Assembly (NCBI RefSeq): GCF_023078455.1
Contig: NZ_CP095740.1
Location: 1,724,001-1,788,000 of the forward strand
DNA: 64,000 nt
Source: Luteibacter aegosomatis
GTDB lineage: Bacteria; Pseudomonadota; Gammaproteobacteria; Xanthomonadales; Rhodanobacteraceae
Reading direction: 5' to 3'
Shown here: in pieces, positions 4,997 to 37,026 of the stretch
How the letters are laid out: each line of letters opens with the position of its first letter
Position numbering within the stretch: position 1 is the first letter of the stretch
The notes under the pieces: generated by a model
The model's input: the letters and a program-made list of their open reading frames with translations, nothing else
The model's database searches: none
What the model was told of the DNA's origin: nothing
Made by a program: the position numbers and the translations under genes

Positions 4997-6196
<1,200 letters not shown>

Positions 6197-6263
6197 GATG
6201 GGGGCTTCCGGGACGTCGAAGACCTCCGATTGTGAGGCCTTTGCCCGGTGGATAAAACCTCGG

Positions 6264-9200
6264 TCAGTGAAGGCCGAAATCCACCCGGGTCGTCCTGCCG
6301 CCGTCGTCGATGCCTTCGGCGTCGGTTTTCGGCGCCACGACGAACAGCCGCTTGTCGTCCGCCTTGCCCTGGAGCCACAGCCTCACCGCATTGGCCCGCC
6401 GTTCGGCCAGGTGGCGCAGGGCGTCGGCGTCGACCGGCATGTTGGTTTCCATGAGCGTGCGCATCTGGTCGGGCGGCAGGGACTTCGACAGTCCGATGAG
6501 GTTCTTCGGTTTGGGGAACGAGGCGTGCCGGTAAGCCCGCTTGAGGTACCGGTCTTCGTCGTCGGGCGTGGCCTCGTCGTTCTCGTTGTCGCCTTTTTCC
6601 TGCCGGATGAGGTCGTCAACCATCACGGCGCGCAGGCCCGGTTCGTCCTTGGCCGGGTCCACGCGGCCGACGATGTCCAGGCTGATCGTCGGCTTGTCGG
6701 CGAGTACCTTGGCGATGTCGGCCAGCTTCGACTGGGCGCCGGCATCGAGTTGCGCCGATCCCGGGGCGAACTCCACGTAGCCGAGGTCTTCGCGTCCGCC
6801 GCCGGCCGAGGCCAGCAGGCGGAACGGCGAGGTCACCGCCTTGACGATGAGGTTGCCGATGGCGCGCCAGACCAGGCCACCGAGACTGAACTGCGGATCG
6901 TCGAGCGAACCCGAGACGGGGATGTTCACGTCGATGCGCCCCTGGGTGTCCTTCAGCAGGGCGACGGCGAGCTTCACCGGCAGATGGCTGATGCCGGGCC
7001 CCTCGATACGGTCGCCGAAGGTCAGCTGGTCGATGAAGATATGGTTGTTCGCGGTGAGCTTGCGCTGGTCGAGCAGGTAGTGCACGTCGACGTTGAGGCG
7101 TCCCCTGGTGATGGGATAGCCCGCGTACTTGCCGGAGTAGGGCGACAGGTTGGCGAGCTGGATGCCGTCGGCCTTGGCCGTGATGTCGAGGAAGGCCACG
7201 GGCGTGAGCGGATTGATGGTGCCGCGGATGTCGACCGGCGCATTGTCGTCGAGCTGGCCTTGAAGGGTCAGCTCTGCCGGTGCGCTCCCTCCCGCGGTGC
7301 CGAATGCGCCGATCTTGCCGGTGAGCTTCGTCACGTCGGCGGTGTAGTTGGGCTTGATGAAATTATCGGTGTAGTTGAGGCGGCCGCCGGTGAGCGAGAT
7401 CTGGCCGATATGGATGTCCGCGGCGGGCGTGGCGCGCGCGGCCTCGGGTGCCGGCGTGGGCGGCGCGGGCGTGTCGCGGGCTTCGGTGACCGATACCGTG
7501 CCGGGCGCTTCCGGGCTGGCGACGACGTCCTGCAGGTTGAGGCGGCCGGTCGTGTTGACGATCACGCGGGCATAGAAATCGTCGAGCGCGAGCCCGCCGA
7601 TGGAGGCGCGCGGCGCGGCCTCGCCCACCTGCACCGTCATGTCCGAGGCACTGAGCGAACGCCAGCTAAGGAAATCCGCTTCGGTCACCTTGTCCAGCAC
7701 GCGCACGCGGCCGAGGGTGGCCTGCCCGCGGTAGGCGATGCGAGCCGCGGCGTTGCCGCGATCGGCGTAACGGATCCGTCCCTCCATGCTCAACAGGCCG
7801 CTGGCCACGCGTACGTTCAACGGCACGGTCACCAGCGACTGGAGAGGGGCGATGTCGATGCGGCTGGCCTTTACGGTGAGGTCCGCGTCGAGGGGGCTCG
7901 GTGTCACCGGTCCGGTAACGGCGAACGTACCCTTGCCCAGCGAGCCTTCCAGGTGCAGGGCGAGCGGCTTCTTCATGTCGTCGGAGAGGCCGTCGATGCC
8001 GAACGTCTTCGCCTGCAGCACCACGGTGTTGCGCCTGTTCGGTGACGACGCATCGCGCAGGGTAAGGGTGCCGTCGTTCAAGGCGAGATGCGCGATGCTC
8101 CAGCGCCATGGCGTGGAAGGCGCGGCGGGCTTCGACGGGGGTGGGCCCCTCACCACGCGCGTGAGGTCGAACGAGCCGTCGGCGAGACGGCGCGGTTCGA
8201 GCGAGAGGCCGTCGAGGGTGAGGTTGTCGAGGCGAGCCTCGCCGCCGGCCAGATCGAGCAGCGCGATCGATGCTTTCAGTGACGACCACGCCACGGGGAG
8301 CGCCTCGTCCCGATGCGGCACCAGGCGAAAGCCCTCGAGCTTCGCCTGTGTTTTCGCGATGCGCAGGGCGAAAGCCCGGCCCCAGTCCACGGCCAACTCG
8401 CCGTCGGCGCCCACGGTGCCCGAGGCCACGTCGGCGTCCAGGAGCGGCGGCGCCAGCGGCATCAGCGTGGCGAGCGCGATCCTGTCGAGCGATAGCCTGC
8501 CCGCGTAGCGGCCGGCGGCGAGGTCGAGCGTGCCCTTCGTCTTGAGACTGCCTCCGGCCATTCGCGCGGTGGCGTCCACGGTGGCGGCCCGGGCGGCCAC
8601 CGTGGACAGGCCACGTACGTCGCCGTCCAGCCCTTCGAGCACGAGCCGGCTGGGCGCCGGGCCGGCAAGGTTCGCGTATTCGAACCGGGAGCGTTTCAGC
8701 GTCAGCGTATCGATGCGCACGTCGGTGGGTTTGGCGTCGGCGCCGGGGGCGCCGGGCGTGCTCAGCGCATCGAGGTTGCTGCGGCCGTTCGGCAGGCTGG
8801 CGTAGCGCAGGTCGAGGCCGTCCAGGGCGACGATGCCCAGACGATAGCGCGAGGTCAGCGGTTCCAGCGCGGTCAGTTCCACGTCGCCGTGGCCGAGCCC
8901 CAGCAGCGGCGCGCCGTCTTTGCCGGCGACCTTCAGCCCGTCGATGACGAGTCGGCCGCTCAGGATCACGTGGGGTTGCGCGTCGGCCATGGTGAAACGG
9001 ATGTCCAGCCGTCCGGACAGCTTGCCGTCGGACATGCCGACCGGCAGTGGCGTGGGCACGAAGCCGACGTAGCGGGGCAGGTCGAGATGGTCGAGCCGGA
9101 AGCTCAGTAGCGACTCGCGGTCATTGGCGAACGGCTTGGTCTGTCCTTCCACGCGTAACGGGCTGCCGTCCACGTTCATCGCGAGCAGCGGCCGCACGTA

Positions 9201-9827
9201 GATGTCCGTCGCGCTGGGAAGGTTGGCGATGAAGGGGAGGCCCAGTTCGATATGGTCGAGGCGATGGCTGGCGTCCAGCACGCGATCGTCGACATCCACC
9301 TGTCCGCCGTGAACGGCGATATTGGACAGCGCGAACCGGACGGGTTCCGCATCGACGGGGGCCGGAGACGAGGCGAGGCGCTCGAGGATGTCGCTGAAGT
9401 TGAAGCGTTGCGGCGCGCTGCGCCGTATACGGATGCGCGGTCTTTCGACATCGAGTGCATCCAGGATCGGCGCCAAGCGGAAAAGCGACGACCAGGATGC
9501 GTTCGCGATGACGCGGTCCACGTCGACGAACGGGGAGGTGCCATCCGCTTCGCCGATGTGCAACGCCTCGACGGTAACCTCCAGGGTGAACGGATTCAGC
9601 GAAAGCCTGCCGACGGTCACCGGGCGTCCCAGCGCGGCGCTGGCGCGCGACTCGATCTGCGAGCGGAGCAAAGGCGGCGCGGCGAAGAAGCCGAGAAGCC
9701 CGAAGACGATCGTCGCGACGACGAGGGCGAAGACGATGCGCCGCGTGCGGTGCGAACGGTATACGGCCAGGGCGCGTTCGCGTCCCTCGTGCCAACGGAT
9801 CCGGCCCTTCGTCTTGCGCGTTTCCAT
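6264..9827 (-). CDS. DUF748 (AsmA-like) family envelope protein with C-terminal OmpA-like segment
   Basis: A 1187-residue protein: basic N-terminus, one membrane anchor (about 29-50, [20 protein letters not shown]), then a very long repetitive beta-strand region with the AsmA-like start [17 protein letters not shown], ending in an OmpA-like stretch ([20 protein letters not shown], near residue 1040). AsmA-like proteins (TamB, YhdP, YdbH) form periplasmic grooves linked to phospholipid transport to the outer membrane; DUF748 is a related family with unclear function. The start at 9827 follows an AGGGG-like site and removes 40 unlikely upstream residues. Its position between tdh and kbl is unexpected and does not by itself imply a role in threonine metabolism. 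Confidence 0.85.
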
Positions 9828-9847
9828 GCAGCACCCCTGGAACGAAC

Positions 9848-9880
9848 GTGGCCCCCGGCGAAGTGTACGCCGGGGGCCAC
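9848..9880 (-). other. Perfect 13-bp hairpin between tdh and the DUF748 gene
   Basis: Arms 9848-9860 and 9868-9880 are fully complementary around a 7-base loop, in the 79-base gap after the tdh stop. No T-run follows on the minus strand, so it may be a weak terminator or an mRNA-processing/stability hairpin that separates tdh from the downstream genes. Confidence 0.6.
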
Positions 9881-9906
9881 GATGGCGGCGATCCGTCAGA
9901 CGGCCG

Positions 9907-10941
9907 TCAGGTCCAGGAGCAGACCACCTTGCCGCACTGGCCGGCATCCATCAGGTCGAAGCCCCTCTGGAAGTCGTCGATGGCGATCTGGTGGGTGAGC
10001 ACCTTCTGAAGCGGGAAGCCGGTGAGCACCATCTGGGTCATCTTGTACCAGGTCTCGTACATCTTGCGGCCGTAGATGCCCTGCAGGGTAAGGCCCTTGA
10101 AGATCACCTTGTCCCAGTCGATGCCGGCACCGCGCGGCATGATGCCGAGCATGGCGATCTTGCCGCCGTGGTACATGCACTCGAGCATGTCGGCGAACGC
10201 GCGCGGGTTGCCGCTCATTTCCAGGCCCACGTCGAAGCCTTCGATGTGGAGGTCTTTCACAACGTCCTTCAGCGACTGGTTGGCCACGTTCACCACGCGG
10301 GTGGCGCCCATGTCGGCGGCCAGCTTCAGGCGATAGTCGTTGACGTCGGTGACCACCACGTTGCGCGCGCCCACGTGCTTGGCGATGCCGGCGGCGATGA
10401 TGCCGATGGGGCCGGCGCCGGTGATGAGCACGTCTTCGCCGATCAGGTCGAACTCGAGCGCGCAGTGCGCCGCGTTGCCGTAGGGATCGAAGAAGGCGGC
10501 CAGTTCCGAGGGAACCTGGTCGGGGATCGGCCACAGGTTGGAGGCCGGCATGGTCATGTATTCGGCAAAGGCGCCGTCACGGTTCACGCCGATGCCGAAC
10601 GTGTTCGGGCACAGGTGCTGGCGGCCGGCCCGGCAGTTGCGGCAGTGGCCGCACACGATGTGACCCTCGGCCGACACGCGGTCGCCCACCTTGTAGCCGG
10701 TGACCCCCGGGCCGATCTCGGCGATGCGGCCGACGAATTCGTGGCCGATGACCAGGCCCGGCTTGATCGTGCGCTGGGACCACTCGTCCCACTTGTAGAT
10801 GTGCAGGTCGGTGCCGCAGATCGCGGTCTTCTCGACCTTGATCAGCACCTCGTTGGGGCCGACGGTCGGCACCGGCACTTCTTCCATCCAGATACCCTGT
10901 TCGGGCTTGCGCTTGACCAGCGCCTTCATCGTCTGCTGCAT
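9907..10941 (-). CDS. tdh: L-threonine 3-dehydrogenase
   Basis: A 344-residue zinc-dependent medium-chain dehydrogenase that oxidises L-threonine with NAD+ to 2-amino-3-ketobutyrate, the substrate of Kbl. Catalytic zinc ligands are C42 in [14 protein letters not shown] and H67/E68 in IGHEFVG; the structural zinc cysteines are C97, C100, C103 and C111 ([15 protein letters not shown]). [20 protein letters not shown] is the Rossmann motif. Similarity to E. coli Tdh runs the full length. The in-frame ATG at 10929 (MKALVKRK) matches the E. coli start and is a good alternative, since neither has a strong ribosome-binding site. The gene is divergent from the first S46 peptidase. Confidence 0.97.
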
Positions 10942-10990
10942 GGTGGTTCAAGGTTCCGTGGGGAGCGTCCGCGGCGCGGACCAAACCGCC

Positions 10991-10996
10991 ATTATA
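10991..10996 (-). promoter_or_regulatory. Candidate -10 element of the tdh promoter
   Basis: On the minus strand this reads TATAAT, a perfect -10 hexamer, about 50 bases upstream of the tdh start. The -35 region is not well conserved. Confidence 0.5.
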
Positions 10997-11098
10997 GGCC
11001 GGTGAGGGGTGGCGATCTTGTGCGACGCGCCATTGCCAGGTGCCGGGGCGGCCCTCTATGGTCCGCAAGGTTTTACGATGCAAGGGATACCGAAGACG

Positions 11099-13252
11099 AT
11101 GCGAATCCGCACGATGATGCTGGGCGCCGCCATGGCGCTGGCGCTGGAGGCCCGGGCCGACGAGGGGATGTGGCTGCCCTCGCAGTTGCCCGACATTGCG
11201 AAAAACCTCAAAGAAGCCGGCTTCCGCGGTGACGCCCGCGATCTCGCCGACCTGACCCGCGCACCCCTCAACGCCGTGGTGCGGGTGGGAGGCGGCACGG
11301 GCTCGTTCGTGTCGGCCGACGGCCTGCTGGTGACCAACCACCACGTGGCCTTCGGGGTGATCCAGTACAACTCGCGGCCCGATCGCGACCTGATCTCGAA
11401 CGGCTACGTCGCCGCCGACCGGGCCGCGGAGCTGCCCGCCAACCCGGATTACCGTCTCCGCGTCACCGTGGGGTTCGACAAGGTCACCGATCGCATCCTG
11501 GCCGACGCGAAGGGGAAGACCGGCCGGGCGTATTACGATGCCGTGGACGCCGCCAGCAAGGCGCTGGTGGCCGAATGCGAGAAGGAGCCGGGCATTCGCT
11601 GCAGCGTGGCCAACATGTTCTACGGCCGCGACTTCTACCTGGTGAAGCAGCTCGAGCTTCGCGACCTTCGCCTCGTTTACGCTCCGCCGCGTGCCATCGG
11701 CAACTACGGCGACGAGATCGACAACTTCGTCTGGCCCCGGCACGCGGGCGACTTCACCATCCTGCGTGCCTATGTCGGCCCCGACGGCAAGCCCGCGGAC
11801 TATTCGCCCGACAACAAGCCGTACCATCCGCCGTCGCACCTGAAGCTGGCGACCGAAGGCGTGGCCGAAGGCGATTTCGTCATGCTGGCCGGTTATCCCG
11901 GCATCACCTATCGCCATCGCACGGCCGCCGAGTTCGCCGACCAGATCCAGTGGCGCCTGCCGACGTCGGTGGCCGTGCTGACCGGCCTGCAGGACGTCAT
12001 CGAGGCCCAGGGAAAGGCCGACAAGGACGCCGGCATCCGTTACGCCTCGCAGTTGCAGTCGCTCAAGAACGGCATCAAGCGCTTCAGCGGCGAACTCCAG
12101 GGGCTGGAGCGCAGCGACGCCGTCACCGTGCGTCGCGACGATGAGGCGGCCATGCTCGCGTGGCTGGCGACGCGCCCCGAAGCGAAGACGCTCAAGCCCG
12201 ACATCGACGCGGCCATGGCGTTGATCGAGCAGGGCAAGGACGTGCGCGATCGTGATCTTCTCGTCGGATTGCTTTCCACGCAGACGCAGTTGATGCGCGG
12301 CGCCCTCGCGCTGGACCGCCTGTCGGTCGAGCGGCCCAAGGCCGATGCCGAACGCGAATCGGGCTACCAGAAGCGTGACGAGGAGCTGATCAAGAGCCAG
12401 CTGAAGCAGATCCAGCGTCGCTACGATCCCAAGGTGGAGAAGGCGCTGGTCACCTCGCTCGTCACCCGCTACCAGGCGCTTCCCTCCGCCCAGCACCTGC
12501 CCGAGATGGACAAGGTGTTCGGGCGCACGGCCGCGGAGCTCGCGCAGGCACTCGATCGCATCTATGGCGCCACCAAGCTCAGCGACGAAGGCGAACGCCT
12601 GCGCCTGTTCGACGCCACGCCCGGTGAGGTGGAGAAGAACGGCGACGCCTTGCTCGTCGCCGCGCGCACCCTGCGCCCGGCCCTGCTGCGCATGGAAGAC
12701 CAGCGCAAGGCTCGCGAAGGCGATCTGCTTCGCCTGCGTCCCGCCTACATGCAGGCGTTGATCGCCTACCGCGAGAAGCAGGGCCGCGCGGTGTATCCCG
12801 ATGCCAACTCCACCCTGCGCGTGAGCTACGGCAAGGTCACGCCGCTGGTCGCGCGCGACGCCGTGGCCTATGCGCCCGTCACCACGGTGAAGGGCATCGT
12901 CGAGAAAAACACCGGCAAGGTGCCTTTCGATGCGCCCAAGCCCCTGCTCGACGCCATCCGCAAGGGCGATTTCGCGGGTTACGCCGATCCGGCCACGGGC
13001 GAGATGCCGGTGGATTTCCTCAGCAACCTCGACACCACGGGCGGCAACTCCGGCTCCCCCGTGCTCAACGCGAAGGGCGAACTGGTCGGCCTCAACTTCG
13101 ACAGCAACTGGGAAGCCGTGAGCGCGAGCTGGATGTACGACCCGCGCTACAAGCGCGCGATCCACGTCGACATGCGTTACATGCGTTGGCTGATGGACAA
13201 GGTCTATCCCTCGCCGTCGCTTCTGAAGGAGCTCGGCGTCCCGGTGCGCTGA
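11099..13252 (+). CDS. Family S46 dipeptidyl-peptidase, DPP11-like specificity residue
   Basis: A secreted S46 serine exopeptidase of 717 residues, releasing dipeptides from peptide N-termini in the periplasm. The signal peptide is MRIRTMMLGAAMALALEARA. The triad is visible as TNHH (residues 79-82), EIDNFVWPRHAGDF and GGNSGSP. The residue 18 past the catalytic Ser, at position 673 in the P. gingivalis numbering, is Ser (GLNFDSNWEA). In this family Arg or Ser there is associated with DPP11 (Asp/Glu at P1) and Gly with DPP7. An in-frame ATG at 11078 with AAGG upstream is an alternative start. The neighbouring paralogue has Gly, so the pair may be complementary. Specificity is inferred from this residue. 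Confidence 0.9.
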   Translation: MRIRTMMLGAAMALALEARADEGMWLPSQLPDIAKNLKEAGFRGDARDLADLTRAPLNAVVRVGGGTGSFVSADGLLVTNHHVAFGVIQYNSRPDRDLISNGYVAADRAAELPANPDYRLRVTVGFDKVTDRILADAKGKTGRAYYDAVDAASKALVAECEKEPGIRCSVANMFYGRDFYLVKQLELRDLRLVYAPPRAIGNYGDEIDNFVWPRHAGDFTILRAYVGPDGKPADYSPDNKPYHPPSHLKLATEGVAEGDFVMLAGYPGITYRHRTAAEFADQIQWRLPTSVAVLTGLQDVIEAQGKADKDAGIRYASQLQSLKNGIKRFSGELQGLERSDAVTVRRDDEAAMLAWLATRPEAKTLKPDIDAAMALIEQGKDVRDRDLLVGLLSTQTQLMRGALALDRLSVERPKADAERESGYQKRDEELIKSQLKQIQRRYDPKVEKALVTSLVTRYQALPSAQHLPEMDKVFGRTAAELAQALDRIYGATKLSDEGERLRLFDATPGEVEKNGDALLVAARTLRPALLRMEDQRKAREGDLLRLRPAYMQALIAYREKQGRAVYPDANSTLRVSYGKVTPLVARDAVAYAPVTTVKGIVEKNTGKVPFDAPKPLLDAIRKGDFAGYADPATGEMPVDFLSNLDTTGGNSGSPVLNAKGELVGLNFDSNWEAVSASWMYDPRYKRAIHVDMRYMRWLMDKVYPSPSLLKELGVPVR

Positions 13253-30710: not shown

Positions 30711-31583
30711 ATGAACTGGCTGCAAAAGATCATGACGCCGAAGACCCGTGCGCCCAGCGCGGCCGGCGGCAAGGGCAAGGTGCCCGAGGGCGTCTGGGAG
30801 AAGTGCGCCGGCTGCGGCACGGTTCTCTACAAGCCGGAGCTAGAGAAGTCGCTGATGGTCTGCCCCAAGTGCGGTCATCATCATGCGATCAGTGCGCGCC
30901 TGCGCCTGGCGGCGTTCTTCGACGAGGGCAGCACGACCGAGCTGTGGCCGAAGATGGAAGCCGTCGACGCGCTCAAGTTCAAGGACCAGAAGAAATACAA
31001 AGACCGCGTCGCCGCCGCGCAGAAGTCCACCGGCGAGAAAGATGCCCTGATCGCCATGTCTGGCACGCTGCTCGGGCGACCGCTCGTGTCGGTGGCCTTC
31101 GAGTTCGCTTTCATGGGTGGTTCGATGGGCTCGGTGGTGGGCGAGAAGTTCACGCGCGCCGCGGAGAAGGCCCTGGCCGAGAAGAGCGCGCTGGTCTGCT
31201 TCGCCGCCACCGGCGGTGCGCGCATGCAGGAAGGCCTGTTCTCGCTCATGCAGATGGCGAAGACGTCCGCCGCCCTCGCGCGCATGCGGGATGCCGGCGT
31301 GCCGTACATCTCGGTGCTCACGCATCCCACCACCGGCGGCGTCTCCGCCAGCCTCGGCATGCTGGGCGACATCAACGTGGCCGAGCCGAAGGCGTTGATC
31401 GGCTTCGCCGGCCCGCGCGTCATCGAGCAGACCGTGCGCGAGACGCTGCCGGAGGGTTTCCAGCGGCCGGAGTTCCTCGTCGACCACGGCGCGGTCGACG
31501 TCATCGTCGACCGTCGCGAGATGCGCGACAAGCTGGGGGCGATGCTGGGCATCATGCAGAAGGCGCCGCGCGCGGCGGCTTGA
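30711..31583 (+). CDS. accD: Acetyl-CoA carboxylase carboxyltransferase subunit beta
   Basis: The 290-residue beta subunit carries the N-terminal zinc ribbon CAGCGTVLY...CPKCGHHH (four Cys, about 33-55) and the crotonase-fold carboxyltransferase core ([48 protein letters not shown]). With AccA it transfers carboxyl from biotin to acetyl-CoA, the first step of fatty-acid synthesis. It closes the truA-trpFBA-accD run and is followed by a strong terminator. In many relatives folC comes next; here a lanthipeptide locus does. Confidence 0.97.
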
Positions 31584-31587
31584 TGCG

Positions 31588-31620
31588 AAAGAAAACCCGG
31601 CGAAAGCCGGGTTTTCTTTT
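31588..31620 (+). terminator. Rho-independent terminator of the trp-accD operon
   Basis: A perfect 14-bp stem with a GAAA loop (arms 31588-31601 and 31606-31619) ends in GGGTTTTCTTTT. It isolates the lanthipeptide genes from accD transcription. Confidence 0.95.
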
Positions 31621-31785
31621 AGGCCGATCGCGGTTTCGCGCCTCGCGTCCGAGCGATAGCTTCACCGACGTGCAACGCCGGGACATCCCTCAACCCTGCC
31701 GAATGCGCTCAACCCCACCTCCCCGCATGGCGAAGAATCGCCCGGCCGGCATGCCGCCGGTCAACCGCGCAAGGAGAGTGACACG

Positions 31786-31998
31786 ATGAACATCGAAACG
31801 ATCCAGGCATCGAACCCGGCGAGCCGTGCCGCCCTGTGGCGCAGCCAAGCCGGCAACGGCAATCCGGCGGGCGAGCTATTCGCGGCGGACTTCGCCGAAG
31901 CCGACATCGTCGGGGGCACCGACATCATCGTGACCAACTGCGTGCTTTGCACCGGCTCGGTTGATGCGAACACCCGTCACGTGCAGTGCGGTGCCTGA
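31786..31998 (+). CDS. Class II lanthipeptide precursor 1 (LanA-like)
   Basis: A 70-residue precursor behind a strong AAGGAG site. The leader (1-44) contains NPAGELF (26-32) and ends AEADIVGG, the NPAG and double-glycine signature of mersacidin/lichenicidin-type class II leaders. The 26-residue core (45-70) has three Cys (core positions 8, 11, 24) and five Ser/Thr (T1, T6, T12, S14, T19), built around TNCVLCTGS. LanM would dehydrate Ser/Thr and add Cys to form up to three (methyl)lanthionines. It is a clear paralogue of the second precursor (leaders collinear, both 44 residues). Product structure and activity are unknown. Confidence 0.88.
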   Translation: MNIETIQASNPASRAALWRSQAGNGNPAGELFAADFAEADIVGGTDIIVTNCVLCTGSVDANTRHVQCGA

Positions 31999-32276
31999 TC
32001 CTTCCGGCGGCGCAGGGAGGCGCTGCCGAATCGGCGCACAACTTTTTCCGCGCCTCCTCAGGGGAGGTAACCGACGGGCCATACAGGAAAAGTTTCCGGT
32101 GCAAGCATCGGGTCGCTCGCGCGCGGCTCTTGTGAACGTCGTGTCCGCGTGGAAAGAATCGCGCGGGGCCGGCAGGAAGGTGGCTTGGTTCATCGCATGC
32201 GTCGCCATTCGCTCTGTCAGCACCACCGACGAAGTCCAGTTTTTCCCAACCGAAACTGTGCAAAAGGAGTGTCACG
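31999..32276 (+). other. Intergenic region between the two lanthipeptide precursors
   Basis: The 278 bases contain an 8-bp inverted repeat (GGAGGCGC 32016-32023 / GCGCCTCC 32050-32057) and then a CCTCC-TCA-GGGGAGG hairpin. They could form an intercistronic terminator or processing site that makes precursor 1 mRNA more abundant, or the gap may hold a second promoter. No further precursor ORF with a GG leader was found in it. Confidence 0.4.
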
Positions 32277-32483
32277 ATGAGCAACGAAATGATCCATGCC
32301 GCCAAATCCGTCAGCCGCGCCACCCAGTGGCGTCACCAGGCCGGTTCCGACAATCCGGCCGGCGAACTGTTCGCGAACGGCTTCGCCGAGGCCGACATCG
32401 TCGGTGGTACGGAAATGCTGGTAACCGGTTGCGCGATGTGTACGGGCTCGATCGAGCACACCATCCGCATCGCCTGCGCCTGA
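32277..32483 (+). CDS. Class II lanthipeptide precursor 2 (LanA-like)
   Basis: A 68-residue paralogue of precursor 1 with its own AAAGGAG site. The 44-residue leader again has NPAGELF and ends FAEADIVGG. The 24-residue core has Cys at 8, 11 and 23 and Ser/Thr at T1, T6, T12, S14, T18, centred on TGCAMCTGS. The spacing T-x4-T-x-C-x2-C-T-x-S is identical to precursor 1, while the last Thr and Cys positions shift by one, so the terminal ring may differ slightly. The single LanM gene begins 10 bases after the stop. A two-peptide lantibiotic is possible, but the cores are too alike to be obviously alpha/beta partners. Confidence 0.88.
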   Translation: MSNEMIHAAKSVSRATQWRHQAGSDNPAGELFANGFAEADIVGGTEMLVTGCAMCTGSIEHTIRIACA

Positions 32484-32493
32484 TCGTCTCGCC

Positions 32494-35442
32494 ATGACGT
32501 CGAGCAGGGAAGCTGACTTCAGCGAATCGCTGGGTTGCCTCGTCGCCGATGCGTCGGCTCGCCTGGCAACCCAGCTCCAGCGCATCGGTGGGCTCGCGCA
32601 AGGCGAGCGCCAAGTGATCCATGACAGCGTGCGCGGCGCCGCGATCGCCACCTTGCACGGACGCACCTGCCGCCTCCTGCTGCTGGAACTCCACGCCGCC
32701 GTCGACGACGGCAGGCTATCGGCCGCCGACGGCGCGGGACGCTGGAACGAATTCGTCGCGCTCGCGTCGAAGCGGTCGTTCTGGACCGGTCTCGACGAAC
32801 ACTATCCGGGGCTATGGGAACGCGTGCAGGCACTCGTCGAAGGACGCTTCCATGCGGGCTACGAACTGGCGCGTCGCCTGGCGCGCGACAGGAGCGCGCT
32901 CGCCGAACTGTGCGGCATGCCGACGATCGGTGAACTGACCGGACTGGACGTCGGTGCGGGCGACAGCCACCAGGGCGGAAAGACGGTGATGCTCATGCGC
33001 TTCGCGCAAGGCCGCGTGGTGTATAAGCCCAGGCCCGTCGGCATCGATGTGGAACTGCGCCGGTTCATCGACGGCCTGGGCATCGATACGTCGATGCGCG
33101 TGCCGCGCGCGATCGAGCGCGAGGGGTATGGCTGGACGGAATTCATCGAGCATCGGCACGCCGACGATGCCGACGCCTTGCGTACCTTCTACCGCGGCAT
33201 CGGCGAATGGCTGGCCACGATGCGCCTGCTCGGCGGCACGGACCTGCACGCGGAAAACCTGATCGCCCAGGGGGCGCATCCGGTGGTGATCGACTGCGAA
33301 ACGCTATTCACGCCCCGCGTCGATGCGCCCCCGTCGGGCCTGGGCGAAGCCTACGATCGCGCGTCGGCGATGGTCGACGGCAGCGTATTGAACATGGGGC
33401 TGCTGCCGGGCCGTGGTGGTGCGCTGGCCTTGCGCGGCGTCGACCTGTCAGGCATCGGCGCGCTGCCCGGCGAGCAGCCGAAGGTGGCGGTGCCCGCGAT
33501 CGTCGACGCGGGTACCGACAAGGCGCGCCTGGGCACGAAGTGGATCGACATCGTGCCGGGTCGCAACCATCCCAGCGGACGCCCCGAACTGGCGACCTAC
33601 TGGCCCGACGTGCTCGGTGGATTCGAAGCGCTCACCGCGCACCTGCGTGCGCTCGACGCGGGCGGCGAACTGGCCGCGCGGATGCGGCCTTTCGCCCGCT
33701 GCGAGGTGCGCGTGGTGGTTCGCGCGACGGAAACCTATGCGGAACTCGCGCGCATGCTCTGGCACCCGGTATCGCTGCACGATCCGAGAAAAGCCTGGGC
33801 GCAGGCGGCGGAACTGCTGCTCAAGGCGGGCAGGGCACGTGCCCTGTCGCCGGACGACGAAGACGTGATCGCCGCCGAGATCGCCGAACTGGTGGATGGC
33901 GACATTCCCTACTTTTCCACTCGCGCATCGGAAGGACGCCTGGCGGGTCCACGCGGAACGCATTGGCTGGCGCCCGGCCATCGGGTCGAGGCCGCTCTTG
34001 CGAGCTGGCGGTCCGCCGACTTCGCCCTCGAGCGACTGGTGATCCATGGCGCGCTGGCCAGCGCCTACGCCAGCGAAGGCCCGGGCACGGCCGAAACGCT
34101 GCGCGTCGCCGTACCGAGGGTGAAGGATATCCATGCCCGTCGTCGCGCCCAGGCCGCCGCGATCATGCGCTCGTTGATGTCACGCGCGATCCGTGGCGCC
34201 GACGGCAGCGTGTCCTGGATCGCCTCGGTACTCGGTCCGATGGGCCGTAGCGTGCAGCCGTTGGCGCAGGACATGTACGGTGGCATGGCGGGCCTCGCCC
34301 TGCTGGTATCGGGCTACGTCAACGAACAGCGCGACGGCCGTGCCGACGCCGTGGAAGGCGTGACGTCGCTGCGCGACGCCGTGGTCGACTCGATGCGCAT
34401 GGCCGACGACGAAACCTACGTCCGTCGCGCGCGGGTCGCCCGTCCGCGTCCGGCGCCTCCGGGCGGTTACATCGGCCTCGGTTCGCAGATAGGCACATGG
34501 CTTTCGCTGGAAGAAGCCGGCGCGGCGTCGGGCGAGGGCGTGGAACGTGCGCGGCGGCTGTCGGCGCTGATGGAAGAAAGCATGGAGGCCGACGACATCG
34601 ACGACGTGTTGACCGGGTCGGCGGGCGGCATCGTTCCCCTGATACGCCTGCATGGAGCCACCGCGGACATCGTTCACCTCGACCGGGCCCGTGCCATCGG
34701 CGACCGCTTGTGCGAACGCGCGCGCCTCGTCGACGGCAAGGCCTGCTGGGTCGGCGAGCGCTGGCCCGACGGGCTCGGCGGCTTCGGGCATGGTGCGACG
34801 GGCATCGGCTGGGCCTTGTCGAAGCTTGCCCTCGCCACGGGAGAATCGCGTTATGCGTCGATGGCCGAAGCCGCGATGGCGTTCGAAGACGCTTTGTTCG
34901 ACGCGGACGCCGGGCACTGGCGCGACCTGCGCAGCCTGCAGGGCGGTGAGGTGTCGGCGGCCGCCTGGTGTCATGGCTCCGTGGGTATCGGCCTGGCCGG
35001 GTTCGATCTCGGTTGGGCGCGTCATGCGCGGCGCGACCGGCTGCGCGCGGCCGTCGCGGACGCCTGGCGCCGGGGCCTGGGTGTCAACCACGGCATCTGC
35101 CACGGCGATACCGGCGCATGGGAGTTGCTCGACCGCGCCGTGACCGAAGGCTTCGCGCCCGACGGACTGACCCGCGAATCCCTGGCCGCCGCCATCGTCG
35201 GCAGCCTGGAAATGCATGGCCCACGGTGTGGGGCGATCGGCGAGGTATTGTCGCCCGGCCTGATGACCGGCCTGGCCGGCGTGGCCTATCAATTGCTGCG
35301 CATGGACCCGCGCTGCCCGCTACCCTCGGTGATGCTGCCCACCGTCGCCTGGAAGGGTCAGAGCAGCACGCGCTCCGCCCACAGCGACAGCGTACCCAGC
35401 CCGCCGCCGATGGCGGTGGCGGCGAGCACGTCGCTCGGGTAG
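32494..35442 (+). CDS. lanM: Class II lanthipeptide synthetase LanM
   Basis: A 982-residue bifunctional enzyme. The N-terminal DUF4135 dehydratase phosphorylates and eliminates Ser/Thr; it shows KTVMLMRFAQGRVVYKPRPV (kinase-like Lys region) and GTDLHAENLIAQ...VVIDCETLF (about 249-273). The C-terminal LanC-like cyclase has GFGHGATGIG (H766), WCHGSVGIGL (C826) and HGICHGDTG (C869, H870), i.e. intact zinc ligands C/C/H and the catalytic His. The 3' end runs 85 bases into the convergent PAP2 gene, so the last about 28 residues overlap it antisense. No LanT transporter/protease, LanFEG immunity or regulator is adjacent. LanM enzymes are less common in gammaproteobacteria than in Firmicutes. Confidence 0.93.
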   Translation: MTSSREADFSESLGCLVADASARLATQLQRIGGLAQGERQVIHDSVRGAAIATLHGRTCRLLLLELHAAVDDGRLSAADGAGRWNEFVALASKRSFWTGLDEHYPGLWERVQALVEGRFHAGYELARRLARDRSALAELCGMPTIGELTGLDVGAGDSHQGGKTVMLMRFAQGRVVYKPRPVGIDVELRRFIDGLGIDTSMRVPRAIEREGYGWTEFIEHRHADDADALRTFYRGIGEWLATMRLLGGTDLHAENLIAQGAHPVVIDCETLFTPRVDAPPSGLGEAYDRASAMVDGSVLNMGLLPGRGGALALRGVDLSGIGALPGEQPKVAVPAIVDAGTDKARLGTKWIDIVPGRNHPSGRPELATYWPDVLGGFEALTAHLRALDAGGELAARMRPFARCEVRVVVRATETYAELARMLWHPVSLHDPRKAWAQAAELLLKAGRARALSPDDEDVIAAEIAELVDGDIPYFSTRASEGRLAGPRGTHWLAPGHRVEAALASWRSADFALERLVIHGALASAYASEGPGTAETLRVAVPRVKDIHARRRAQAAAIMRSLMSRAIRGADGSVSWIASVLGPMGRSVQPLAQDMYGGMAGLALLVSGYVNEQRDGRADAVEGVTSLRDAVVDSMRMADDETYVRRARVARPRPAPPGGYIGLGSQIGTWLSLEEAGAASGEGVERARRLSALMEESMEADDIDDVLTGSAGGIVPLIRLHGATADIVHLDRARAIGDRLCERARLVDGKACWVGERWPDGLGGFGHGATGIGWALSKLALATGESRYASMAEAAMAFEDALFDADAGHWRDLRSLQGGEVSAAAWCHGSVGIGLAGFDLGWARHARRDRLRAAVADAWRRGLGVNHGICHGDTGAWELLDRAVTEGFAPDGLTRESLAAAIVGSLEMHGPRCGAIGEVLSPGLMTGLAGVAYQLLRMDPRCPLPSVMLPTVAWKGQSSTRSAHSDSVPSPPPMAVAASTSLG

Positions 35443-35894
35443 TGCAGGCCGAGGATCACGCGCGAGGCGCCGATGAGCGCGGCGAAACCGACGAGGAACG
35501 GAGCCAGCACCGGATAGTGCGCCACCGCCACCACGGTGAACGCGACGGCCTGCAGCGTATGGCCCGACGGGAAGCTGAACTCGTCCAGCGGCGGCACGTG
35601 TGCGATCACGCCCGGGCAGGTGCGGAACGGGCGCGGCCGACGGGTCCAGCGCTTGAGCACGCGGTAGAGCATCAGCGCGGTGAGCCCGGTGATCGCCATC
35701 TGCACCGCCACGGCCACGCCGTGCCAGCCGCCGACCACGGCGATCACGGTCATCAGCGAGTACCAGAACACGCCGTCGCCGAGGCGGCTGACGGCACCGA
35801 AGAAGAGACCGATGGCACGCCGCGTGCCCCAGCGGTTGGCGGCCACGCACATGCGGGAATCGAGGTTATGCCGCGACGGCGGTCGTGCGCTCAT
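35358..35894 (-). CDS. PAP2 family lipid phosphatase
   Basis: A 178-residue membrane phosphatase of the type 2 phosphatidic-acid phosphatase family. All three motifs are present: KRWTRRPRPF (K-x6-R-P), FSFPSGHTL (PSGH) and SRVILGLHYPSD (SR-x5-H-x3-D), separated by hydrophobic helices. Likely substrates are lipid or undecaprenyl phosphates in the inner membrane. The start overlaps the end of the glycosyltransferase gene by 29 bases, so the two are co-translated and may act on the same glycolipid. The 3' end overlaps the lanM 3' end by 85 bases. Confidence 0.88.
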   Translation of the reverse strand: MSARPPSRHNLDSRMCVAANRWGTRRAIGLFFGAVSRLGDGVFWYSLMTVIAVVGGWHGVAVAVQMAITGLTALMLYRVLKRWTRRPRPFRTCPGVIAHVPPLDEFSFPSGHTLQAVAFTVVAVAHYPVLAPFLVGFAALIGASRVILGLHYPSDVLAATAIGGGLGTLSLWAERVLL

Positions 35895-37026
35895 GGACGT
35901 TGTCCTCGGCCAGGGATTGCATGATGGATTCGAATTCGGTGACGACGGAATCGGGCGAGAGCCCCTCGACCGAGGCGCGCGCGGCCAGCCCCAGGGCACG
36001 GCGCGCGACGAGGTCGGCGCCCAGCGTCGCGGCGCGCTCCACCAGGCCGCCCTCGTTGCCGGGAGCGATGCGGATGCCGTTCTGCCCGTTGCGGATGAAT
36101 TCCCGCGCGGCGGCTTCGGCATAGGCCACCACCGGCACACCGGACGCCATGGCCTCGAGCACCACGTTGCCGAAGGTTTCGGTGAGACTGGGAAAGACGA
36201 AGAGATCCGCGCTGGCGTAGAACGCGGCCAGTTCGTCGCCCCGTCGCGTGCCGGCGAAGATCACGTCCGGATGCGCGGCTTCCAGCGCGGCCCGGCCCGG
36301 GCCGTCGCCGACGATGACGCAGCGCGCCCTCGGCACGCGGCGGGCCAGGGCACGGTAGGCGTCGATCACCACGTGCAGGTTCTTTTCCGGCGCGACGCGG
36401 CCCACGCTCAGTACCACCGGCGTGTCGGCATCGGCGCCCCAGGCGCGACGCAGGTCGTCGTCGCGGCGTTCCGGGTGGAAGCGCCGCGTGTCCACCGCGC
36501 GGCGCAGTACGCGCACGTCGTGCACGCCCAGGTCGTTGAGCTCGCCGGCGAGCTGGCCGGTCGGCACCAGCGTGACGTGCGCGCGGCGATGGAAACGGGC
36601 GAGGTAGCGGCGCACCAACGGGGTGAGCGCGCCGAAGCCGTAGTGGCCGACGTAGAAGTCGAAGCGGGTATGGAATCCGGTCGCGACGGGGATGCCGAGG
36701 CGGCGCGCGGCGCTCACCGCGCTCCAGCCCAGGGGGCCTTCCGTGGCCACGTAGATCGCGTCCGGGCGTTCGGCGCGCCAGCGGCGCTCGATGCGGAAGC
36801 GGGAAGGCAGGCCGAAGCGGAGGCTCGCGTAGCGCGGCACCGCGGCGCCTTCGACCGCGAGGACGTCCATGCCGGCATCCGCCAGGGGCGGGCTGTCGGG
36901 ATGGATCGGCCGGATGAGGTCGATGCCGTGACCCTTGCGGACGAGTCCGCGGGCCAATGCCTGGACGGTGAGGGACACCCCGTTGACGTCCGGAGCGTAG
37001 GTCTCGGTGACGATGCCGATTCGCAT
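35866..37026 (-). CDS. GT4-family glycosyltransferase
   Basis: A 386-residue GT-B enzyme. The N-terminal domain starts MRIGIVTETYAPDVNGVSLT, typical of MgtA/PimB/SqdX-like GT4 enzymes that glycosylate lipids. The nucleotide-sugar domain has VLSVGRVAPEKNLHVVIDAY, FVFPSLTETFGNVVLEAMAS (E-x7-E) and GVPVVAYAEAAAREFI. The 91 upstream in-frame residues are not conserved, so the ATG at 37026 is used. Pairing with a PAP2 phosphatase suggests membrane glycolipid synthesis (for example mannosyl- or glucuronosyl-diacylglycerol); donor and acceptor are unknown. Confidence 0.87.
   Translation of the reverse strand: MRIGIVTETYAPDVNGVSLTVQALARGLVRKGHGIDLIRPIHPDSPPLADAGMDVLAVEGAAVPRYASLRFGLPSRFRIERRWRAERPDAIYVATEGPLGWSAVSAARRLGIPVATGFHTRFDFYVGHYGFGALTPLVRRYLARFHRRAHVTLVPTGQLAGELNDLGVHDVRVLRRAVDTRRFHPERRDDDLRRAWGADADTPVVLSVGRVAPEKNLHVVIDAYRALARRVPRARCVIVGDGPGRAALEAAHPDVIFAGTRRGDELAAFYASADLFVFPSLTETFGNVVLEAMASGVPVVAYAEAAAREFIRNGQNGIRIAPGNEGGLVERAATLGADLVARRALGLAARASVEGLSPDSVVTEFESIMQSLAEDNVHERTTAVAA

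Follow-up and report, generated by a model that had tools for sequence, protein, structure and literature searches.

A probable rhodanocin locus with two precursor genes in the genome of Luteibacter aegosomatis

The window analyzed here is a stretch of 64,000 nucleotides of the Luteibacter aegosomatis genome (contig NZ_CP095740.1, positions 1,724,001 to 1,788,000), and it contains two lanthipeptide precursor genes, P1 and P2, followed by a gene for the synthetase LanM. Judged from its sequence, this is in all likelihood a rhodanocin biosynthetic locus and a new member of the rhodanocins. In the excerpts of PMC9576775 (2022), the DUF6229 precursor of 'Dyella sp. 333MFSha' was co-expressed in E. 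coli with its LanM, and nuclear magnetic resonance (NMR) of the product, which has four dehydrations and three rings, gave the connections Thr6-Cys11, Cys8-Ser14 and Thr12-Cys23, with Thr18 present as dehydrobutyrine (Dhb); the family was named rhodanocins, and LL-lanthionine and DL-methyllanthionine count among its features. The P2 core after GG is TEMLVTGCAMCTGSIEHTIRIACA, and its Thr6, Cys8, Cys11, Thr12, Ser14, Thr18 and Cys23 coincide with all seven modified positions given in those excerpts (6, 8, 11, 12, 14, 18 and 23). The P1 core, TDIIVTNCVLCTGSVDANTRHVQCGA, coincides at five of the seven (T6, C8, C11, T12 and S14), and the last two are found at T19 and C24, shifted by one through a single inserted residue. 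In addition, both precursors belong to DUF6229 and the host to Rhodanobacteraceae. An earlier note on this DNA, made from the letters alone, had suggested that the ring topology may be new and that up to five dehydrations may occur. These suggestions have to be withdrawn in view of the published positions, because the C-x2-C-T-x-S core is the NMR-solved rhodanocin core, P2 has its modifiable residues where rhodanocin has them, and four dehydrations are expected by analogy with rhodanocin's four. The window locus is thus a sibling of a known system, and no new ring topology is gained.

The earlier note had described two paralogous precursors of 70 and 68 amino acids (aa) followed by LanM, with NPAG-type leaders ending in ADIVGG, and open reading frames (ORFs) with exactly these features are present. 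P1 and P2 scored 41.0 and 47.8 bits, respectively, against PF19740 (DUF6229; Pfam cut-off 25), a family matched by all 10 members of the close family alignment, and the sole other Pfam match was a sub-threshold one of P2 to DMSP_lyase (15.1 bits, cut-off 27). The leaders are identical at 29 of 44 positions, with only 5 identities in the first 13, whereas the cores are identical at 10 of 24 aligned residues, so that conserved leaders with diverging cores is a fair description. The core pattern proposed earlier also stands except for the last Thr-to-Cys spacing, which is x4 in both cores and not x(3-4); the sole variable spacing is that from Ser to Thr, x3 in P2 and x4 in P1. The layout T.C..CT.S.{3,4}T.{4}C occurred in 0 (P1) and 1 (P2) of 200000 shuffled cores and recurs in related peptides from four further genomes of the genus, and therefore it is not due to chance. 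All seven columns of ring and modified residues are invariant in the 10 aligned peptides. No NCBIfam precursor model matched P1 or P2 at a maximum E-value of 10, a setting at which the HMMER filters drop most matches above ~0.1. This separates the two peptides from the mersacidin/lichenicidin and lacticin 481 types, and a mersacidin/lichenicidin-type precursor was rejected since no curated model of NCBIfam matches either peptide. Those types are likewise class II and have a double-Gly-like leader end as here, but their core layouts differ.

LanM scored 548.6 bits against TIGR03897 (cut-off 304) and has the Pfam domains PF13575 (DUF4135 dehydratase) and PF05147 (LanC-like). The dehydratase motifs (GDSH at 156, VYKP at 176, DLHAENL at 250 and VIDCETLF at 265) and the zinc-site motifs (WCHGS at 825 and NHGICHGD at 865) are all present, and they fall on the same stretches in an alignment with LicM2, as do the dehydratase motifs in an alignment with CylM; the motifs are thus intact, as had been noted. 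With both domains in LanM and a core bearing Ser, Thr and Cys behind a leader beside it, the assignment as a class II lanthipeptide gene set of a gammaproteobacterium, with a LanM that looks functional, was confirmed at the level of sequence. Relatives were sought in 23 genomes of the genus, including that of the window (G000), and in 233 genomes of the family. The locus was found in five of the 23 (G000, G105, G109, G113 and G116), and LanM identity to the window protein was 79% in G113 (residues 1-561 only), 67% in G105 and G116, and 61% in G109. In a 54-row LanM tree, the five proteins beside precursors of rhodanocin layout group into a single clade (SH-aLRT 99). L084, L088 and L089 retain the LanM motifs in frames free of stops, and L086 retains the dehydratase half before its contig ends within the gene; a loose dehydratase pattern, R[AP]T..Y, is missing in L084.

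We next compared the locus with the systems nearest to it. According to the excerpts of PMC11165876, 333MFSha is listed with Luteibacter mycovicinus strains, its reclassification as Luteibacter has been proposed, and uncharacterized lanthipeptide clusters of L. mycovicinus are mentioned. On account of this listing, the genus of the published rhodanocin is very probably that of the window locus too. Among the named relatives of the window locus, a Luteibacter metagenome-assembled genome is the nearest, and P0002 is from Luteibacter sp. PPL201. A DUF6229 precursor, a LanM and a Rhodanobacteraceae host are common to the 333MFSha system and the window; in contrast, the window has two precursors, where the cluster text in the excerpts of PMC9576775 says 'the precursor peptide', and the large ring predicted for P1 is one residue longer. 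The DUF6229 lanthipeptides of Lysobacter and relatives (PMC11451712, and the lysobactin-region peptide in PMC9576775, both in excerpt) share the leader family and a class II LanM, but both papers give them different positions of Cys, Ser and Thr.

Several points weigh against the assignment as a rhodanocin. The comparison with the 333MFSha precursor (WP_043693394.1) relies on residue positions in the excerpted article. The AspN '23-mer' in the same excerpts fits cores that begin T-D (D2 to A24 being 23 residues), and window P2 begins T-E; T-D cores of P2-type relatives also carry Asp7, a possible AspN site, and this count is no more than suggestive. Between Ser14 and Thr19, P1 carries an additional residue, and a P1-type product is not described in the excerpted text of PMC9576775. 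The conserved pair and the P1 variant do not figure in the excerpts of the three papers cited here, and, judged by titles and the beginnings of abstracts, we found no other publication dealing with them. Compared with the published rhodanocin, the locus is modestly new in its conserved precursor pair, in the lengthened large ring predicted for P1, and in having no exporter or protease gene of its own. It extends a small family of lanthipeptides made by Gram-negative bacteria, whose topology has been solved by NMR, by natural variants, one of which would have a longer large ring.

From these genes, we infer a maturation in which P1 and P2 would be made as leader-core precursors, with the DUF6229 leader (R..W...A...NPAG..F..FAEADIVGG) of both recognized by the single LanM. 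LanM would dehydrate Thr6, Thr12, Ser14 and Thr18 (Thr19 in P1) and close three thioether rings, Thr6-Cys11, Cys8-Ser14 and Thr12-Cys23 (Cys24 in P1). The Cys8-Ser14 ring is predicted to be a lanthionine in which Cys precedes Ser and to interlock with the first ring, and one Dhb would be left inside the large ring. For the untagged full-length peptides, neutral monoisotopic masses of 7086.37 (P1) and 7047.27 (P2) were calculated, and four waters correspond to 72.04 Da. An enzyme encoded outside the locus would then cut off the leader near GG, after which the product would be exported and probably be a weak, narrow-spectrum antibacterial; in the excerpts of PMC9576775, the anti-Klebsiella activity of rhodanocin is weak (126 uM).

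No exporter or protease gene lies within the locus, and no relatives of the genome's own C39 ATP-binding cassette (C39-ABC) protein were found in the flanks of L084, L088, L089 or the available part of L086. One C39-ABC gene was found in G000 (L091), more than 2 Mb from the locus and beside another candidate substrate. At positions 5795-11421 of this region (G000 C1:4312000-4328000) there are an HlyD-family protein, the C39-ABC exporter (720 aa), a 272-aa ORF and an aspartyl-protease-family ORF. The 272-aa ORF has a double-glycine leader (RELxxxELxxVxGG) and no Pfam or NCBIfam match, and the region resembles an independent export system of the microcin type, whose candidate substrate would be unusually large. 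Dedicated export of the lanthipeptides through this exporter is not supported, as it adjoins its own leader-bearing ORF. Near full-length relatives of it occur in genomes of the genus that have no locus, such as G115, G112 and G123. For G116, which has the locus, the matches listed were all without the C39 part, and this 60-contig draft yielded no C39-ABC protein but only a stand-alone C39 domain, with loss in a gap possible. The lack of a C39-ABC protein in G116 fits the report, in the excerpts of PMC9576775, that the rhodanocin leader was not cleaved by LahT150, although it may contain a double-Gly motif.

It is thus conceivable, though unlikely in our judgment, that P1 and P2 encode two near-isomorphic rhodanocins matured and released without C39 or a dedicated ABC exporter, by an unlinked route of a kind not so far known from class II lanthipeptides. 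This reading is opposed by C39 domains in ABC-sized frames of G000, G105, G109 and, weakly, G113 (41.5 bits), and since these other locus-bearing genomes have C39-ABC-sized proteins, the argument for maturation without a C39 exporter comes from one genome, G116. A stand-alone C39 protein (L092) is found in 22 of the 23 genus genomes, unlinked to the locus; its closest counterparts are the amyloid and pilus peptidases FapD/FilB, at scores well below their cut-offs, and it may have a general role in leader processing. In the sister DUF6229 loci L058 and L066 (L040 was also sampled), an ABC-transporter protein without a C39 domain adjoins LanM. A search of G000 for an orthologue of the L066 transporter gave no close relative, the best-scoring match being one of 43% that was confined to the ATPase part. 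The locus also makes a question of the whole family testable, namely by which route leader removal and release from the cell proceed where no protease or exporter is encoded alongside.

The rhodanocin layout is present in 9 of 62 DUF6229 matches, which come from 42 of the 233 family genomes, and all nine are in the five locus-bearing genomes of the genus, the window's included. A family-alignment search of a large protein collection returned 32 proteins, of which 12 have the layout, window P2 among them; these 12 are the 13 best matches less P0011. The latter (77 aa, from a metagenome) is rhodanocin-like with a shortened core end, CTGSQNIPCGA, that lacks the Dhb-forming Thr, a possible small-ring variant. 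In the family genomes, all 61 DUF6229 ORFs over the cut-off are followed on the same strand by a LanM match, at 6-1125 bp as measured to the start of the tblastn match; a single sub-threshold DUF6229 match (22.6 bits) has no LanM and was excluded from this count. Two of 54 LanM matches are short, namely L086, at a contig end, and L069 (453 aa). In L069 (G125), a 453-aa frame beside an intact DUF6229 precursor holds a match limited to residues 8-453, which may represent a LanM that is broken or split.

The distribution of the pair bears on whether P1 and P2 form a two-component lantibiotic, whose products would cooperate by acting at different steps, like those of the haloduracin or roseocin type. 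In its favor, four of the five loci of the genus retain both precursors in the same order, with a 278-bp spacer in the window. Known two-component lantibiotics have two different topologies, act in synergy and usually have two LanMs. In the window, however, both cores have essentially one layout and the locus has a single LanM, and G109 has a P2-type gene alone, which makes this explanation rather improbable. In the peptide tree, a branch that sets P1 apart had a bootstrap frequency of 2% (200 trees), and the single gene of G109 fits either late duplication or clean loss alike.

Whether the locus is expressed was considered from the same sequences. A scan of 31560-35700 for sigma-70-like promoters found 0 where 0.3 would be expected by chance, although such scans miss other promoter types. 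Together with the missing exporter and the patchy spread over five of 23 genomes, this could point to a decaying or silent locus that makes no product. Nevertheless, the three genes are open, AGGAG-type ribosome-binding sites precede P1 and P2, LanM in the related loci retains its motifs without stops as described above, and the seven core residues are invariant, so that a silent locus appears highly doubtful. No obvious ribosome-binding site was seen before LanM, which starts right after P2. Terminator-like sites numbered 2 against 2.1 in shuffles, and the one just after P1 (32020-32037) is thus no more than chance would give. The P1-P2 spacer is alignable over its length in four genomes. Finally, a new ring topology specific to the window locus, conceivable because connectivity is not readable from sequence and LanM can steer ring formation, was rejected on the match of P2 to the NMR-solved relative at every modified position given in excerpt, and as LanM shares a clade with its counterparts from the other loci of rhodanocin layout, it is extremely improbable. 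The features of the probable rhodanocin locus and its neighbors are listed in Table 1.

Table 1. Features of the locus and its neighbors, in window coordinates
Feature	Position	Strand	Basis or remark
P1, lanthipeptide precursor, 70 aa, DUF6229	31786..31998	+	ORF; leader residues 1-44, core 45-70
P1 core after GG	31918..31995	+	Predicted rings T6-C11, C8-S14, T12-C24 and Dhb19, by analogy with rhodanocin NMR (published excerpts)
P2, lanthipeptide precursor, 68 aa, DUF6229	32277..32483	+	ORF; leader residues 1-44, core 45-68
P2 core after GG	32409..32480	+	Predicted rings T6-C11, C8-S14, T12-C23 and Dhb18, by analogy with rhodanocin NMR (published excerpts)
LanM, class II lanthipeptide synthetase, 982 aa	32494..35442	+	Start directly after P2; TIGR03897, PF13575, PF05147, motifs
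Locus-specific stretch	31585..35357	.	Absent from relatives without the locus; blastn boundaries, gap lengths
accD, conserved left neighbor, outside the pathway	30711..31583	+	PF01039/PF17848; in 23/23 genomes of the genus
PAP2-family phosphatase ORF, conserved right neighbor	35358..36140	-	PF01569; convergent with LanM, overlapping; true start probably inside the ORF

The genomic site is shared by the loci of the genus. In L084, L088 and L089, the locus is flanked by accD on one side and by PAP2 and a glycosyltransferase on the other, and the accD flank is also present in L086. The gap from accD to the glycosyltransferase is 3809-4975 bp in four of the five genomes with the locus (in G113 it is split over contigs), as against 524-2581 bp in the 18 genus genomes without it. 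In the 12 of these 18 that were fetched, PAP2 sits between accD and the glycosyltransferase, and blastn alignments with the window break off at 31572-31619, near the stop codon of accD, and start again at 35334-35379, near that of PAP2. P1, P2 and LanM residues 1-950 gave no tblastn match at 1e-3 in these 12 genomes. Short C-terminal matches to LanM in genomes without the locus were rejected as remnants of the gene, because they lie at the PAP2 3′ end, which LanM overlaps in antisense (35358-35442; coordinates compared for G108 and G119). In four genomes of the genus (L093, L094, L095 and L096), ~1-2 kb of different DNA fills the accD/PAP2 junction and matches none of P1, P2 and LanM, and for this reason the junction may be a spot of repeated cargo gain. 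In G109, ~0.2 kb separates accD from its P2-type gene. The tail-to-tail overlap of LanM and PAP2 in the window is 85 bp long, and on opposite strands the last 28 codons of LanM are the antisense of conserved codons at the 3′ end of PAP2.

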